From a virus, in the IMG/VR virus record IMGVR_UViG_3300042518_000672, positions 1-31,270 of that record: a stretch of 31,270 bases of DNA. One strand, 5' to 3'. Numbering within the stretch: the stretch's first letter is position 1; the number at the start of each line of letters is the position of its first letter. Positions 4,615 through 12,015 of this stretch are shown here, in pieces. The notes beneath the pieces were generated by a model, which saw only the letters and a list, made by a program, of their open reading frames with translations, had not been told where the DNA came from and made no database searches. A program made the position numbers and the translations under genes.

Positions 4615-4804
4615 CGTAGGTTCCCGCGTAGCTTTCCAGAATCACCGTCGATCCTCCCTCTGTGAGCCGCTGCTAGATCAGCAGCTTCTGCCCCGAGGGG
4701 CGCGCGTCTTCCATCTCCTGAAACCTCCGCAGTAGTTACGCATCGCCGCGCATCCGTCCGCATGCGCCCTACCGCCGTTCGCGTAGGATTCCGCGTAGGT
4801 TTCC
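4614..4804. repeat. Four copies of a 12-bp repeat in two pairs; probable attP / integrase arm sites
   Basis: GCGTAGGTTCC at 4614-4624 and GCGTAGCTTTCC at 4626-4637 form one pair. GCGTAGGATTCC at 4781-4792 and GCGTAGGTTTCC at 4793-4804 form another. All four point the same way and the pairs are about 145 bases apart, flanking otherwise non-coding DNA next to the integrase. Paired direct repeats around a core are what arm-type integrase or excisionase sites look like. A GCTGCT-5-AGCAGC dyad (4669-4685) and GCCCC-GA-GGGGC (4690-4701) lie between the pairs. The actual crossover core cannot be fixed without the host attB. Confidence 0.6.
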
Positions 4805-4818
4805 AACGGGAGCGGGAA

Positions 4819-6081
4819 GTGTTCGACGCACGGGCAGCGAAAGCCCTCAACCCTGGCGATCATCTCACGGTCGACGGTGCGCCCGGCCTGCGCCTGGTGG
4901 CGACCGCATCGCGCCGGACGTGGACGTACCGCTACCGCTCGCCGGTCGACGGCCGGATGCGACAGATTCGCCTCGGGCACTGGCCGGCCATGTCGCTGCC
5001 CGCTGCCCTGGCGGCATGGGAGCGCGTCGCCACGTTGCGCGCTGCCGGTCAGGACCCAGCACAGGACGCCCGCCAGCGGAAGCGCGCCACCATCGCCGAG
5101 GCTCGCGCGACCGCGTACACGGTCCGCAAAGCGTGCGCGGAGTATCTGGACGCCTACGCATCGGACGTGGGCGCGAAGACGCACAGAGAGGCGCGCAGGC
5201 TGCTCGCCGTGGCAACGGAATCGATTGCCGACAGACCCGCCGCCAGCATCACGCGGGCCGATGCTTTCGAGATCGTGGACGCGATGCGCGATCGGCCAGT
5301 CATGGCGATGCGGCTTCGGCAGACGCTCGGGGCTGTGTGGGACCGGGCGCTTGATGCCGGACGGTTGCCGCCGGAAGTGCCGAACTGGTGGCGGCTTGTC
5401 CTGCGCGGGCAGCTCCGGTCGCGCGGGAAGGTCGTCCGCGGCGAGCAGGCCGGGCCCGTGAAGCGCGTCCTGTCCGGTGCCGAAGTCGGCGCGCTGCTCG
5501 GCTGGCTGCATCACTTCTCGCCCGACGTGGCCGACGTGCTGACGCTGTACCTGTGGACCTGCTGCCGTGGCGCGGAGATCGTCGGCATGGAGCGGCGCGA
5601 GATCGTCGAGGAGACGGACGGGCTGTGGTGGGTGATCCCGCGTGCTCGGCTCAAGATGCGGCGCAATGTCAGCACGACGGACCTGCGCGTGCCGCTTGTC
5701 GGGCGAGCGGAAGCGATCGTGCGGCGGCGTCTTGAGATCCCCGGTCGGTATCTGTTCCCGTCGCCGCGCGCGAAGAGCGGGCACATCGGGCAGGGCGCTG
5801 CCGGACAGGCGGTGTGGTTCCATATGCCGGAGTGCACGCTGCGCCCGGAGATTGAGCGGGAGCGGTTGCCGGTGGTGGACTTCGCCCCGCATGACCTTCG
5901 ACGCACGAGCCGCACGTTCCTGGCTGCGCTCGGGTGTCCGTCGGAGATTGCCGAGGCGATTCTGGGGCATGTGGCGCCGGGTGTCGTGGGCATCTACAAC
6001 CGGCACAGCTACGACGCCGAGCGGCGGGTGTGGCTCATGCGGTTGTCTCAGCATCTTGAAGGGCTGGCGACTCAGGGCTGA
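4819..6081 (+). CDS. int: Site-specific integrase, tyrosine recombinase (P4-like)
   Basis: Integrates and excises the phage at attP/attB. From the GTG at 4819 it has 420 residues: an N-terminal P4-type domain (DARAAKALNPGDHLTVDG, GLRLVATASRRTWTYRYR), a core-binding helical domain (about 95-190), and a C-terminal catalytic domain. The catalytic set is visible as R in TCCRGAEI, HDLRRTSRT, the histidine of ILGHV and the tyrosine of IYNRHSY. The usual upstream ATG at 4762 would run the protein through the repeat region. The GTG is preferred because GGGAG lies seven bases before it and the P4-type domain starts there. Its 3' end overlaps the convergent methyltransferase gene by 10 bases. Confidence 0.9.
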   Translation: MFDARAAKALNPGDHLTVDGAPGLRLVATASRRTWTYRYRSPVDGRMRQIRLGHWPAMSLPAALAAWERVATLRAAGQDPAQDARQRKRATIAEARATAYTVRKACAEYLDAYASDVGAKTHREARRLLAVATESIADRPAASITRADAFEIVDAMRDRPVMAMRLRQTLGAVWDRALDAGRLPPEVPNWWRLVLRGQLRSRGKVVRGEQAGPVKRVLSGAEVGALLGWLHHFSPDVADVLTLYLWTCCRGAEIVGMERREIVEETDGLWWVIPRARLKMRRNVSTTDLRVPLVGRAEAIVRRRLEIPGRYLFPSPRAKSGHIGQGAAGQAVWFHMPECTLRPEIERERLPVVDFAPHDLRRTSRTFLAALGCPSEIAEAILGHVAPGVVGIYNRHSYDAERRVWLMRLSQHLEGLATQG

Positions 6082-6997
6082 CTGAGCAGCCGCCATGCTG
6101 CTGCCGCCACTGCTGATACTTGCCCATTTCCAATGGCTTTAAGTCGGTCCACCCGAGCGGCCACCCCATTAGCCACTCGACCCACGTCGGGTTCAGTGGA
6201 CCACCATCTTGAATCTCTGTATCCGGAACGACTGAGTCCGGGGAACCACCTACGCGCCCCTTCTTCCATCCCTTGACTGCTTTCGTCAGGGTGAGGTGCG
6301 ATCCGGGAGTCTGCTTCCCGTCTCGTTCCTGGGCGTTCGGTGTCGGCCACATGCGTACCGCTGTCGCCAACCCGTCCCCGCTCGTCGCAGATGCGCCTTT
6401 GCGGTTGTAGTTGCCGCAGACCGTGGGCGTGGGCCATTTCACTGCCAACGAAAGCGGCGTGCCGCCCTGCGCGTATGGCTTGCTCCGCGAGCTCGTGTCG
6501 CTCGCCACTGGCGTGGGCCACAAGCCAGAACCGGTCACGCTGGTGCGGCGCCCCAACATCGGCAGCTCCCAGCACCGTCCATCGGCAGTCATACCCGAGC
6601 GCGGCCAGGTCACCGAGCACTCGTCCGAGTCCCCGAGTAACGATTGCTGGACTGTTCTCCACGAAGACGAAGCGCGGTCGAACGTCGCCAACGATCCGTG
6701 CCATGTGCGCCCACATGCCGGACCGCTCGCCGTCAATGCCTGCACCCTTTCCGGCAACGCTGATGTCTTGGCACGGAAACCCGCCCGAAACCACGTCAAC
6801 AAGGCCTCGCCACGGTCGTCCGTCAAAGGACTGCACGTCATCCCAAACCGGGAAAGGCGGGAGAAGGCCGTCATTCTGTCGGGCGAGCAGTACACCTGCG
6901 GCGTAGGGCTCCCACTCGACGGCGCAGATGGTTCGCCATCCGAGCAGGTGGCCACCAAGAATGCCTCCACCAGCGCCCGCGAAAAGTGCCAGCTCAT
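6035..6997 (-). CDS. WPTP-repeat protein overprinting the C5 methyltransferase gene (candidate)
   Basis: A 320-codon frame, shifted +1 relative to the methyltransferase, that covers nearly all of that gene and runs 37 bases past its stop. It is not a featureless shadow. It has three WPTP motifs (residues 160-163, 188-191, 217-220), a SLATFDRASSSWRT segment (102-115) and the block LNPTWVEWLMGWPLGWTDL (268-286), which I recall from phage hypothetical proteins annotated beside cytosine methyltransferases. Its ATG at 6997 overlaps the stop of the upstream AlpA-like gene as ATGA, the coupling used throughout this operon. An internal ATG at 6841 is an alternative start. Function is unknown. The frame's motifs could instead be by-products of strong conservation in the methyltransferase frame. 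Confidence 0.5.
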   Translation of the reverse strand: MSWHFSRALVEAFLVATCSDGEPSAPSSGSPTPQVYCSPDRMTAFSRLSRFGMTCSPLTDDRGEALLTWFRAGFRAKTSALPERVQALTASGPACGRTWHGSLATFDRASSSWRTVQQSLLGDSDECSVTWPRSGMTADGRCWELPMLGRRTSVTGSGLWPTPVASDTSSRSKPYAQGGTPLSLAVKWPTPTVCGNYNRKGASATSGDGLATAVRMWPTPNAQERDGKQTPGSHLTLTKAVKGWKKGRVGGSPDSVVPDTEIQDGGPLNPTWVEWLMGWPLGWTDLKPLEMGKYQQWRQQHGGCSVSPESPALQDAETTA

Positions 6998-7016
6998 GCA
7001 CGGATCGCCTCGTCAT
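6072..7016 (-). CDS. dcm: DNA cytosine C5 methyltransferase
   Basis: Transfers methyl groups from S-adenosylmethionine to C5 of cytosine, most likely protecting phage DNA from host restriction. The 314 residues from the ATG at 7016 contain motif I FAGAGGG (12-18), the catalytic loop GGFPCQDIS (Cys82), ENSPA (120-124), GAPHQRDRFW (155-164) and the closing motif LKAIGNGQV (292-300), in canonical order. The target-recognition region (about 170-280) has poor complexity and coincides with the WPTP part of the overlapping frame. The gene ends the early left operon, overlaps the upstream AlpA-like gene by 23 bases and the convergent integrase by 10. No restriction enzyme partner is seen nearby. Confidence 0.93.
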   Translation of the reverse strand: MTRRSVHELALFAGAGGGILGGHLLGWRTICAVEWEPYAAGVLLARQNDGLLPPFPVWDDVQSFDGRPWRGLVDVVSGGFPCQDISVAGKGAGIDGERSGMWAHMARIVGDVRPRFVFVENSPAIVTRGLGRVLGDLAALGYDCRWTVLGAADVGAPHQRDRFWLVAHASGERHELAEQAIRAGRHAAFVGSEMAHAHGLRQLQPQRRICDERGRVGDSGTHVADTERPGTRREADSRIAPHPDESSQGMEEGARRWFPGLSRSGYRDSRWWSTEPDVGRVANGVAARVDRLKAIGNGQVSAVAAAAWRLLSQP

Positions 7017-7251
7017 TTCGAGACGCTGTGCGCCCCGGCCCCGGCGGCAGATCGCTGACCGGCCGCGACTCCGCGAACGCCACAAGCTCGCGCCACAACC
7101 AGCCGACGCGACCCGCGCTCAACTTGCGCGGCGGCGGCAGTTCCTTCGATCGCACCAGACCTTCGAGCGTGCGGACGGAGATCCCCAGGGCGGCGGCTGC
7201 GGCTTCGCGCTCGACCATGAGGGGCGGGGATTGGATGAGTTCGCGCTTCAC
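6994..7251 (-). CDS. AlpA/MerR-like helix-turn-helix protein, excisionase candidate
   Basis: An 85-residue protein with a winged-helix/AlpA-type DNA-binding motif: EREAAAAALGISVRTLEGLVRSKELPPPRKLSAGRVGW (about 14-51) matches the pattern helix, turn, recognition helix and basic wing. Small proteins of this type are excisionases or regulators for P4-type integrases, and this gene is the nearest such candidate to the integrase. The gene starts with ATG overlapping the previous stop (ATGA). Its own stop overlaps the ATG of the WPTP frame, while the methyltransferase starts inside it. The role as excisionase is inference. Confidence 0.7.
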   Translation of the reverse strand: MKRELIQSPPLMVEREAAAAALGISVRTLEGLVRSKELPPPRKLSAGRVGWLWRELVAFAESRPVSDLPPGPGRTASRNDEAIRA

Positions 7252-8139: not shown

Positions 8140-8366
8140 TTCGTTGCCTCCAGTGCGGCGCGCACACGCGGCAATGCTTGCGCCGCTCTCTGTTCGCACC
8201 ATGCCAAGTCATCCTCCGGTTCTCGGTCAGCATCGCCGATGTCCGCCAGCGCGGCCTCGGCATACGCCAGCGCCGCCCTTAGCTGCGCCTCTATCTCCCC
8301 GCACGCCTGCCTCAGCGCGAGGGCGTCCATGTGGTCGGGAAGGGAGTCGGTCAATGGGTGGCTCAT
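8136..8366 (-). CDS. Small helical protein of unknown function
   Basis: A 76-residue, Ala-rich, acidic, helical protein (MSHPLTDSLPDHMDALALRQ, then GEIEAQLRAALAYAEAALAD). The ATG at 8366 has GGAGGT directly upstream and overlaps the methyltransferase stop as ATGA. There are no recognisable domains or membrane helices. Confidence 0.62.
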   Translation of the reverse strand: MSHPLTDSLPDHMDALALRQACGEIEAQLRAALAYAEAALADIGDADREPEDDLAWCEQRAAQALPRVRAALEATK

Positions 8367-9250
8367 GCGACCTCCGCGGCAGCGAACAGATCGACCTCCA
8401 ACTTCGTCGCCTGCATCAGATTGCGCGTCGCCTGCTCGTAGTACGAGCGCTTGAGTTCCACGCCGATGAAGCGCCGCCCTTCCTCGATCGCCACGAATCC
8501 CTCTGAGCCGATGCCGGCGAACGGCGAGAGAACGACGTCGCCCGGATTCGTCCACAGGTCAATGCAACGGCGGATGACCTCAAGCTGCAGCGGGCAGATA
8601 TGCCGCTCGTCGTCGTGCTCGCGGGCGGATCGGAATTGCAGCGTGTCGGACGGGTCGATGTCAGTCCAGACGGGCGAGGCGATGCGCTGCCACTTGGCAA
8701 CCGGGAACTGTTCGGGGTCGTGCTTCACGCGCGGCACGGCGTCACCAGGGGCGCGCATCGTGATGACGTAGTCCGGGATTCCCTGGCGGCTCAGACTGGC
8801 GTTCTCGCGGATGCTCTTGTGCAGCAGGCCGATTGCTTTCGTGCGCTGCATCGCGGTCACGGGATCTTTCCAGATGACGACCTCGGAGTGATGGATAAAC
8901 CCGCGCGCCTCAAATGCTCGGATGAGATCGCCGCGGAAGTCGCGCAGGCCAATGTGCCCGTCCCGTTCCTTGCTCGTCGGCATCAGCATGCAGTGGAACG
9001 ACACCTCGCGACCGGGACGCAGCACGCGCCGCAGTTCCGTGATGAGGAACCCGAGATGCTCGAAGAACTCGGCGTCGTTCCGGCAGTTGCCCATGTCGCG
9101 CGGGCTGTTGCTGTACGTGTACAGACTCGCGAACGGCGGCGAGAAGATCGAGTAGTCGATGCTCTCGTCGGGAATGCCGCGCAGCACTTCGACGCAGTCG
9201 CCTTGATAGATGGCGTACTGGTCTGCAATGACTTGATCGATGCAGTTCAT
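8363..9250 (-). CDS. DNA N4-cytosine / N6-adenine methyltransferase (beta-class type)
   Basis: A 295-residue DNA amino-methyltransferase. The catalytic motif IV is SPPF (37-40), more typical of N4-cytosine than N6-adenine enzymes, and it precedes the cofactor motif SPFAGIGSEG (242-251) and the IGVELKRSYYEQA segment, giving the beta-class order. It probably protects phage DNA from restriction or marks it for another purpose. The base modified cannot be decided from sequence alone. It sits between the SNF2-like helicase and small genes, coupled to both by ATGA overlaps, and no cognate nuclease is present. Confidence 0.9.
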   Translation of the reverse strand: MNCIDQVIADQYAIYQGDCVEVLRGIPDESIDYSIFSPPFASLYTYSNSPRDMGNCRNDAEFFEHLGFLITELRRVLRPGREVSFHCMLMPTSKERDGHIGLRDFRGDLIRAFEARGFIHHSEVVIWKDPVTAMQRTKAIGLLHKSIRENASLSRQGIPDYVITMRAPGDAVPRVKHDPEQFPVAKWQRIASPVWTDIDPSDTLQFRSAREHDDERHICPLQLEVIRRCIDLWTNPGDVVLSPFAGIGSEGFVAIEEGRRFIGVELKRSYYEQATRNLMQATKLEVDLFAAAEVA

Positions 9251-10626
9251 GCAACCTCCAGAAACCTCGGCACGGTGACGCGCCGCGTTGCGTTGTAGGG
9301 GTTCGTCTGGCGGACCATGCCAAGGACGTTCGCTTGCACTGCGGCGCGCGTCTCGCCGGAAAGCATCTCCGACATGGCAAGCGCGTCCGCCTCTTTCCGC
9401 TTCAGGTTCGCCACGACCGCGCCCTCTCGCTCGGACGCGAAGATGTGCACGCAGACCGTGCGCGTCTGCCCGAACCGCCAGCAGCGGCGCACGGCCTGGT
9501 AGTAGGACTCGAAGGAATCAGTCACGCCGACGAATGCCATGCGCGCGCAGTGCTGCCAGTTGAGCCCGAAGCCGGCGATGCTAGGCTTCGTGACGAGCAC
9601 GCGGATCTTTCCGCTGGCGAAATCGCGCAGCCGTTGTTCCTTCACGTCGAGATCGTCCGCGCCGCGCACCTCGACGGCATCGGGTATCGCCGCGCGCAGT
9701 GCATCGCCCTCGGCGTTCAGGTCGCACCAGATGACCCACGGCTCGCGGTCAGCGTTGACGACGGCGGCACAGTCGCGCACGCGGTCGGCGATGGAATCTC
9801 GACGCGCCTCGCGCCGCTCCATCAGTGACTGCGCTTCGGTCACGAACAGTGAGCCGGGGACGATGTACTCACTTCGGATGATGTGCTCTCGCAGGTCAAC
9901 CGGCGGCAGGCGGTAGGCGCTGGCGTCGTGCCCAAGGTCAGCAGGCGAGCGCACCAACACGCCCCAGGAGGCGACCCACTGCCAGAAGGCGTGCTTCGCG
10001 TGGCCCTTGATGCGCCAAGTCTGCGTGTCGCCGCCGTCGTGCACGAAGAACTCGGCCAGCATCTCGGAGCGCGAGCACACGCCGAGGAACTCCGCATGCG
10101 TGCCCAGCTCGGTCCAATCGTTCGGCGCTGGCGTTGCCGTCGCGCAGAGCTTGAACGGCGTCTCGCGGAACGCTTCGAGCAGCGTCTTCAGCGTCTTGGC
10201 GTCGTGATGCTTGATGATGCTCGACTCGTCCAGCACGACAGCGCCGAATGCGCTCGGGTCGAATCGGTGCAGGCGGTCGTAGTTCGTGATGACGATGCCC
10301 GCGTCCGTGTCGGCACCGTCCCGAGCGTGCACGACCTCGACGCCAATCTCTGCGCCCTCGGCGACGGTCTGCGGGGCGACCGCCAGCGGCGCGAGGATCA
10401 GCACGCGGCATCCGGATTCACGGCGCACGATGTCTGCCCACGCAAGCTGCATGCGGCTCTTGCCCAGGCCGGTGTCGGCAAAAATTGCCGCACGGCCGCG
10501 ACGCACTGCCCAGCGGGCAAGGTCGGATTGATGCGGGAACAGGCCGGCAGGCATCTGCACGGGGCCGGTAATGCCGGTGGCCGGGCTGCTGGAGAGCTTG
10601 CGCGCGACAAATTCGGAGTAGCGCAT
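9247..10626 (-). CDS. SNF2/DEAD-like superfamily 2 helicase
   Basis: A 459-residue nucleic-acid-dependent ATPase. It shows Walker A ADTGLGKS (about 50-57), the DExx motif VLDESSI (about 131-137), TATP (about 163-166), and the C-terminal helicase domain with QAVRRCWRFGQTR (motif VI), which is typical of phage SNF2-like enzymes. A role in DNA recombination or repair fits its place directly downstream of the ERF and YqaJ genes. The ATG at 10626 shares one base with the preceding TGA (TGATG); a GTG one codon upstream is the alternative. The methyltransferase starts within its stop codon. Confidence 0.9.
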   Translation of the reverse strand: MRYSEFVARKLSSSPATGITGPVQMPAGLFPHQSDLARWAVRRGRAAIFADTGLGKSRMQLAWADIVRRESGCRVLILAPLAVAPQTVAEGAEIGVEVVHARDGADTDAGIVITNYDRLHRFDPSAFGAVVLDESSIIKHHDAKTLKTLLEAFRETPFKLCATATPAPNDWTELGTHAEFLGVCSRSEMLAEFFVHDGGDTQTWRIKGHAKHAFWQWVASWGVLVRSPADLGHDASAYRLPPVDLREHIIRSEYIVPGSLFVTEAQSLMERREARRDSIADRVRDCAAVVNADREPWVIWCDLNAEGDALRAAIPDAVEVRGADDLDVKEQRLRDFASGKIRVLVTKPSIAGFGLNWQHCARMAFVGVTDSFESYYQAVRRCWRFGQTRTVCVHIFASEREGAVVANLKRKEADALAMSEMLSGETRAAVQANVLGMVRQTNPYNATRRVTVPRFLEVA

Positions 10627-11243
10627 CACTCCCCCGCCTCCGCCAGTTCGCGCGCGCGGATTGTTGCTGCATCCACCTCGGCGAGAAACGCGCGAATCTT
10701 CTCTTCCATCTCGTCGATCTCCGTCTGATTGCGGGCATGCCGCAGCACGACCAACTGCATCGGCTCAGGCATCGCCGCGCAGAACGACACGTAGTCGACG
10801 CCCGTCGCACCCGTGCACGCCATCTGCAAGTTCATCTGCGGCACGTAGTCGGCGGGTATCTTCCCGGTAAGCAACGTGGCGACGTGCCGCTCCTGGCGCG
10901 GGCACTTGATCTCTACCAGGACATCGCCCGCGACACCGTCAGGCGACGCGCCGCACATCGGGATGGTCGGGTGCCGCACGAAGGCGACCTCATCCACCAG
11001 CCGGCCCGCGCGCAGTTCGTAGAGCGTCCGCGCCTCTGCCTCGCAGTCGATGCCGCGCTGCATGTCGGCTGTCACGTAGTGCTCGGTCGATAGCCCGGTC
11101 AGGCGCTCGGCGACAAGCTGATAGAGGTACGACTGCCGGCGCTCACTCGGGCCGTTCTTCGTCATCGCGAGCACGTCCGCGACCCGCGAGGCGGTCACGC
11201 AGCCGAGACGTGCGTGGAACCATTCGGCGGTGCGCTGTTTCAT
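10626..11243 (-). CDS. YqaJ-family recombinase exonuclease (lambda Exo-like)
   Basis: A 205-residue 5'-3' double-strand exonuclease of the YqaJ viral recombinase family, expected to resect ends for strand annealing. Motifs are GCVTASRVADVL (14-25), GIDCEAEAR (E68 region), SPDGVAGDVLVEIKCP with the PD-(D/E)XK residues D102, E111 and K113, and YVPQMNLQM (about 133-141). The partner annealing protein ERF is encoded just upstream with an ATGA overlap, forming a two-component recombination system. Confidence 0.93.
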   Translation of the reverse strand: MKQRTAEWFHARLGCVTASRVADVLAMTKNGPSERRQSYLYQLVAERLTGLSTEHYVTADMQRGIDCEAEARTLYELRAGRLVDEVAFVRHPTIPMCGASPDGVAGDVLVEIKCPRQERHVATLLTGKIPADYVPQMNLQMACTGATGVDYVSFCAAMPEPMQLVVLRHARNQTEIDEMEEKIRAFLAEVDAATIRARELAEAGE

Positions 11244-11887
11244 TCGGGCACCACGAGCGCGGCCTTGCGCGCGTCCTTCGCCTTCGTGAACCGCTGCGCG
11301 GCCTGCACGTCCTCGGCGGCTTTCGCTGCCTTGTATGCGGACGTGAACACCTTTAGCAGTTCCTCGGACGTGGCCGCGTCGCTGATCGCTGCGAGGTAGT
11401 CCACCACCTGCGACTCGGGCAGCAGCTCGGCGGCGGAGGCGACCTCGACCGTGCTCTCGTCTGCGTCGGGCGTGCCTTCCAGGGGAATGCAGAACGTGAG
11501 AAAGCAGGCGTATTTGTAGGCCGCGCTCATCGCTTTGTTGGTGGACTTGTCGCTGCTGTCTTGCGCCTCGCCGATCGTGCAGGCGGTGTGCTTGCTGCCG
11601 TCCTCGACGGAGACAAAATCGAACTCCGCGTGCACGGTCGTGAAGAACAGCGCGCCTCCGCTCTTGCTCGATCGTTCGATCTGCTCGCGGGAGGTCATGC
11701 GCGGGATGATGCAGAGACCGTGCTCTGCCAGCAGCGGCGCAAGCGCGTTGTAGACATCGTCGATCCCGCGGAACTTAAACCCCTGCCCTTGCGTGTTGTT
11801 GCGATTCTTCGCGATGCCGGTGCGGGCAAGGTCCTTCGTGATTGCTGCGATGGCCGCGTAGACGCGCGGCGCTGCCTGTTCACTCAT
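11240..11887 (-). CDS. erf: ERF-family single-strand annealing protein
   Basis: A 215-residue recombination protein that anneals complementary single strands in phage recombination and genome circularisation. The ERF core is clear: VYAAIAAITKDL, GFKFRGIDDVYNAL, EHGLCIIPRM, TACTIGEAQDSSDKSTNKAMSAAYKYA. A helical Ala/Lys-rich tail follows (about 150-215). The start at 11887 overlaps the stop of a 43-residue membrane protein as ATGA. It lies immediately upstream of the YqaJ exonuclease, with which it should act. Confidence 0.93.
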   Translation of the reverse strand: MSEQAAPRVYAAIAAITKDLARTGIAKNRNNTQGQGFKFRGIDDVYNALAPLLAEHGLCIIPRMTSREQIERSSKSGGALFFTTVHAEFDFVSVEDGSKHTACTIGEAQDSSDKSTNKAMSAAYKYACFLTFCIPLEGTPDADESTVEVASAAELLPESQVVDYLAAISDAATSEELLKVFTSAYKAAKAAEDVQAAQRFTKAKDARKAALVVPE

Positions 11888-12015
11888 CGAATCACCCCCG
11901 CCAGAAACAGCACCACGAACCCCACGACGCACACCAGAAACACCGCGACATCCCCCGGATGCGCCCGATCACCCTCGCCCGTCCAGCGATCCCCACGCGT
12001 AAGCGGCAGTCTCAT
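11884..12015 (-). CDS. Very small membrane protein
   Basis: A 43-residue frame too short for ordinary gene callers but well supported. The ATG at 12015 overlaps the previous stop (ATGA) with GGGAG seven bases upstream, and its stop overlaps the ERF start in the same way. The N-terminal half is polar (MRLPLTRGDRWTGEGDRAHP) and the C-terminal half is a single hydrophobic helix (DVAVFLVCVVGFVVLFLAGV). Its function is unknown; it could act at the inner membrane. Confidence 0.72.
   Translation of the reverse strand: MRLPLTRGDRWTGEGDRAHPGDVAVFLVCVVGFVVLFLAGVIR

Follow-up and report, generated by a model that had tools for sequence, protein, structure and literature searches.

The window, that is, the whole 31,270-nucleotide stretch of viral DNA analyzed here, contains at 6035–7001 on the minus strand two same-strand reading frames on one piece of DNA, with about 920 bases read twice. 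The initial annotation had placed two overlapping frames with recognizable protein motifs at 6035–7016. Both frames are present with the motifs claimed and the end at 6035 holds, but no start lies at 7016 and the correct region is 6035–7001. Frame A, read from a GTG at 7001 that gives 309 aa (a TTG at 7085 is a possible alternative upstream start), carries FAGAGGG, GFPCQDIS, QRDRFW, and IGNGQV. Frame B is shifted by +1 relative to A and harbors three WPTP motifs and LNPTWVEWLMGWPLGWTDL. The coding overlap amounts to 923 nt, out of 927 for A and 960 for B. The features of the locus, with the putative role of each chain, are as follows.

6072–7001, minus strand: frame A, alpha-like subunit of a C5-cytosine methyltransferase (MTase), with a GTG start, 309 aa, and motifs I–VIII and X.
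6035–6997, minus strand: frame B, beta-like subunit, with an ATG start, 320 aa, a target-recognition region (WPTP modules), and motif IX.
6534–7001, minus strand: catalytic half, with motifs I–VIII in A; B residues 1–155 come from this DNA as well, which is likewise open and conserved in the B frame.
6204–6533, minus strand: variable or target-recognition region, B-dominated, with three WPTP modules in B and mostly disordered in A.
6140–6199, minus strand: motif IX block of B, PLNPTWVEWLMGWPLGWTDL, B residues 267–286.
6075–6146, minus strand: motif X part of A, RLKAIGNGQV and the following helix, A residues 286–309.
6995–7018, minus strand: shared initiation region, with an SD-like GAGG, the GTG of A at 7001, and the ATG of B at 6997.
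6994–7251, minus strand: upstream helix-turn-helix gene (excisionase/MerR-like), ending in a stop that overlaps the B start.

The DNA of 6140–6199, when read in frame A, yields the TEPDVGRVANGVAARVDRL region. Only 4 nt separate the GTG of A from the downstream ATG of B, and within the ATGA at 6997–6994 the ATG of B overlaps the TGA of the helix-turn-helix gene, which bears out the coupled start at 6997 that had been proposed for the second frame. The upstream gene itself matched HTH_17 at 6.5e-5, under the Pfam cut-off, and phrog_597 at 3.8e-11. A tyrosine integrase gene (4762–6081, plus strand) is convergent with the MTase pair, and a 472-aa open frame antisense to it (4678–6096, minus strand) is probably a high-GC artifact. 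A second, unrelated MTase-like gene (8363–9250, minus strand; phrog_67, 1.8e-43) adjoins genes for a helicase (9247–10629), a RecE-like exonuclease (10626–11243), and an Erf-like annealing protein (11240–11932).

Frame A matched phrog_363 and, with an E-value of 1.2e-31, the MTase profile PF00145, where the alignment covered only positions 5–168 of 324, corresponding to motifs I–VIII. Motifs I, IV (PCQ), VI (ENV-like), and VIII were found in A and are nearly invariant over 97–101 relatives. The AlphaFold2 model of A is ordered at residues 1–180 and 291–309 and disordered at 182–290, and its motif X part reached pLDDT values of 76–90. The best Foldseek hit was M.HhaI (9.1e-14), and the ordered part also matched M.HaeIII. 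A recognition domain and a motif IX of its own were not found in the A chain, in which the PF00145 match ends at 168 and residues 182–290 are disordered and B-dominated. On the basis of this model, A resembles an MTase that lacks its small domain, and the selection on B covers the DNA of the missing part.

Residues 64–287 of B aligned to positions 35–282 of the 329 in phrog_1008 (2.4e-37), a family labeled DNA methyltransferase, yet the B frame carries no catalytic motif. No match to B was found in Pfam, PF00145 included, or in NCBIfam, and searches of the PDB with B returned chance-level matches only. Modeled alone, B folds with low confidence (pLDDT 57), and no fold match to this model was found among PDB structures. 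A profile of the IX–X block compared to solved C5 MTases matched plant DRM MTases at the equivalent position with E-values of 0.04–0.25, which is suggestive only. The module WPTPTVCGNYNRKGASxxSGDGLATAV, found for instance at 6356–6436 of the window, recurs nearly unchanged in otherwise diverged B proteins, and the number of WPTP modules varies among them in a pattern as if recognition modules were swapped.

In order to evaluate frame B as a gene, homologs were gathered in two ways, with B as the query and with A as the query while ignoring B, and the expected number of stops was taken from codon shuffles preserving the protein and codon usage of A. Over 127 distinct loci, the B frame contained 14 stops compared to 498 expected; 121 of the loci had none, and most of the 14 stem from three distant loci (L084–L086). 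Among 106 full-length relatives, codons 2–135 of B showed 0 stops with 281 expected and codons 136–290 showed 3 with 233 expected, and an overall stop deficit was not found in the third frame of these relatives. The ATG of B is retained in 98 of the 106. Additionally, an SD-like tetramer precedes the start of A in 75 of them (background 16%), and in 84 that start shares bases with the TGA of an upstream gene. Both frames are retained in distant, AT-rich relatives such as Acinetobacter phage ABMM1 and Microcystis phage Mel-JY01.

The amino acid identity of B in distant pairs was 0.453, compared to 0.275 in A-preserving shuffles, and peaked at EWLMGWPLGWT (0.85 compared to 0.30), so that among homologs B is conserved beyond what A imposes. 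A BLOSUM test supported conservation of B in codons 2–135, with no signal at codons 136–163 and 291–305. As identity in frame +2 was likewise above its own shuffle, raw identity alone is insufficient proof of B, and the case was built on stops, the start codon, alternating dominance, and a single-frame control. A GC-rich window with other long spurious open frames, in which B over codons 1–156 is partly a shadow of A, might suggest that B is a chance product of high GC content and conserved MTase codons. The probability of such an artifact is negligible, however, given that shuffles preserving the protein and codon usage of A predicted 498 stops where 14 occur, and that B is kept in AT-rich relatives and lost in single-frame ones; a chance open frame was ruled out by the codon shuffles and the single-frame control. 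Judged from these sequence comparisons, B is a selected gene, far beyond chance, and the tests proposed in the initial annotation strongly support its idea that the second frame is a real, large gene.

The two frames alternate in dominance along the locus, as judged by codon-position conservation in a single alignment with a poorly aligned middle. Frame A dominates codons 1–156 (motifs I–VIII), within which a 12-codon block at 133–144 is near parity. Frame B dominates codons 157–288, comprising the variable region and LNPTWVEWLMGWPLGWT (LNPTWVEWLMGWP), where position 1 of A, equivalent to position 3 of B, is the least conserved. Frame A dominates again at codons 289–309 (motif X), with its position 3 the least conserved from codon 289. 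This A–B–A alternation coincides with order and disorder along the model of A.

The switch from A to B near codon 157 and the existence of natural single-frame fusions would also be compatible with programmed frameshifting, in which A would be translated through motif VIII and a +1 shift into B would supply the recognition region and motif IX, producing one fused chain and leaving B without a start of its own. We consider this highly improbable, as B begins at a conserved ATG of its own (98 of 106 relatives), the first 135 codons of B, which would be useless to such a fusion, contain none of the 281 stops expected, and motif X lies back in A, such that a second shift would be needed.

The single-frame relatives identify the most conserved block of B. 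In gp72 of mycobacteriophage Tweety, a single frame and a single chain hold motifs I–VIII, LLPTP, PEWMMGWPAGW, and GNGVV, and B aligns to this protein at the EWMMGWP block (BLASTP 4e-6; hhalign 3.7e-6). The order of modules is the same as in the window, namely I–VIII, LPTP, EWMMGWPAGW (IX), and GNGVV (X), but the Tweety protein is a single chain from a single frame and the second frame is not kept open. Ten natural single-frame relatives, Tweety gp72 and nine others, have the B-like block in line just ahead of motif X. In L338, also a single-frame relative, LNPNWVEWLMGFPVGWT is followed by LGNAVVP in one frame, and M.HhaI shows HPRECARVMGYPDSY at the corresponding place ahead of GNSVV. On the basis of its position in line before motif X in Tweety gp72 and L338, the EWMMGWP block occupies the place of motif IX. 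Relatives with motif IX in line do not maintain the second frame: the +1 frame of the ten contained 98 stops, compared to 99.6 expected.

Further relatives divide the motifs between two frames. Druantia (gp78/gp77) and phiBT1 carry both motif IX and motif X in frame B, with A terminating after motif VIII. The B open frame of L239, L240, and L309 contains motif IX in tandem with the pre-X/X block, which are overprinted in the window, and A ends early or without motif X. Both motifs are located in the second chain in L085, L086, L239, L240, and L309 but not in the window, where motif X is in A.

These comparisons bear on whether B could be an independent overprinted protein, such as a regulator, an inhibitor, or an anti-restriction factor, that merely shares DNA with the MTase. 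Such a protein would explain selection over the full length of B, including residues 1–95, which have no known MTase role. It is nevertheless very unlikely, considering that the most conserved block of B is the in-line motif IX of single-frame relatives, that B is lost where motif IX sits in the A frame, that motif X moves into B in some relatives, and that A always accompanies B (160 loci). A was present alongside B in 80 of 80 bacterial-genome loci and in all of the first 80 viral loci, and no example of B as an independent, stand-alone gene was found among them. A subunit would be expected never to occur without its partner, and this result does not count against B. Five bacterial-genome copies (L181, L194, L236, L244, and L252) have an in-frame stop in A with B intact and are either decaying copies or cases in which A is made as two pieces; they come from a set picked by B, and the imbalance may reflect ascertainment.

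Two-polypeptide C5 MTases provide a precedent for this division of motifs. In M.EcoHK31I, too, the small chain (beta, ~176 aa) comes from an overlapping reading frame, and the large chain has the same length of 309 residues. In this enzyme, motifs I–VIII and X are in the larger chain, motif IX is in the smaller chain, and the predicted recognition domain was placed in the large chain (PMC3404938). M.AquI consists of two chains that form one C5 MTase; the division falls within the variable region, and motifs IX and X are in the small chain (PMC3404938). As likened by description, frame A resembles the large chain of M.EcoHK31I (YGGCCR) in having motifs I–VIII and X without IX, and frame B resembles the second polypeptide in having motif IX, as assigned by position and sequence compared to single-chain relatives. 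The window differs from M.EcoHK31I in that codons 157–288, the variable region, are conserved in frame B and not in A, and in that B is 320 aa long and overlaps A almost completely. M.AquI (CYCGRG) is alike in forming one C5 MTase from two chains and unlike the window in carrying both motifs IX and X in the small chain, an arrangement that fits Druantia gp78/gp77, phiBT1, L239, and L240. Apart from EcoHK31I and AquI, no description of this arrangement emerged from a literature search on overlapping MTase frames in phages.

We conclude that the locus very probably encodes a two-chain C5-cytosine MTase, with both chains specified by one DNA segment through two reading frames. Judging by sequence, B is most likely the subunit with the recognition region and motif IX, working as in M.EcoHK31I, and not a separate regulator. 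The initial annotation had suggested a product that could regulate, inhibit, or assist the MTase; assistance was the right direction, and an added regulator or inhibitor is most likely not the case, since B supplies motif IX and a recognition region without counterpart in A. Frame A would produce an alpha chain with motifs I–VIII and X for cofactor binding and catalysis, and frame B would produce a beta chain contributing the variable recognition region and motif IX, that is, the small domain. Starting within 4 nt of each other behind a shared ribosome-binding site that is coupled to the gene upstream, the two proteins would be kept in step. They would bind each other and assemble into one active enzyme that methylates phage DNA, presumably to the benefit of the phage.

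The subunit arrangement does not need B residues 1–95, although these residues are selected. In more distant relatives, B starts near motif IV or later, so the extension of B up to the start of A looks, from sequence, like a feature of the branch to which the window belongs. We tentatively suggest that the N-terminal ~95–155 residues of B may be a functional part of their own, for example clasping the alpha chain or regulating assembly. The whole catalytic half would then be dual-coded for two different folded products, and the gene would have moved during evolution between an overlapped, or folded, form and unfolded forms with a tandem or single-frame layout.

Two-chain MTases are an already known kind, and what is new is the almost complete overlap, the selection acting on B throughout the catalytic half, the location of the variable region in the frame of B, and the spread in phages and prophages. 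It is rare for nearly complete same-strand overlaps to persist in many hosts, and in this case the two products seem to belong to one enzyme. With its overlapped, split, and single-frame forms, the family provides natural experiments on the origin and resolution of overlapping genes. In many phage records, only one of the two frames is annotated or both are called DNA methyltransferase, and tests expressing the A frame alone are predicted to wrongly score such phage MTases as inactive. Public records annotate two overlapping DNA methyltransferase genes in Paenibacillus phage Shelly (L170, gp55/gp56, with "g55 internal gene"), Escherichia phage K1ind2 (L173, gp32/gp33), and Xanthomonas phage PhiXhv-28 (L179), so both members of the pair had already been called as genes, with no explanation given.

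Finally, several loci showed changes of frame within the pair. In L021, L047, L048, L051, and L250, A and B shift frame together in mid-gene, such that the upstream B frame runs into the downstream A frame, as a result of an indel, an error, or a natural frame swap. In L091, from Leptospira plasmid pLiSL34, the frame changes within the LMG motif and the C terminus of A reads the text of B (QPINWSAVEPLETHKFQQW); in a related Leptospira plasmid copy (L171), both frames are intact.
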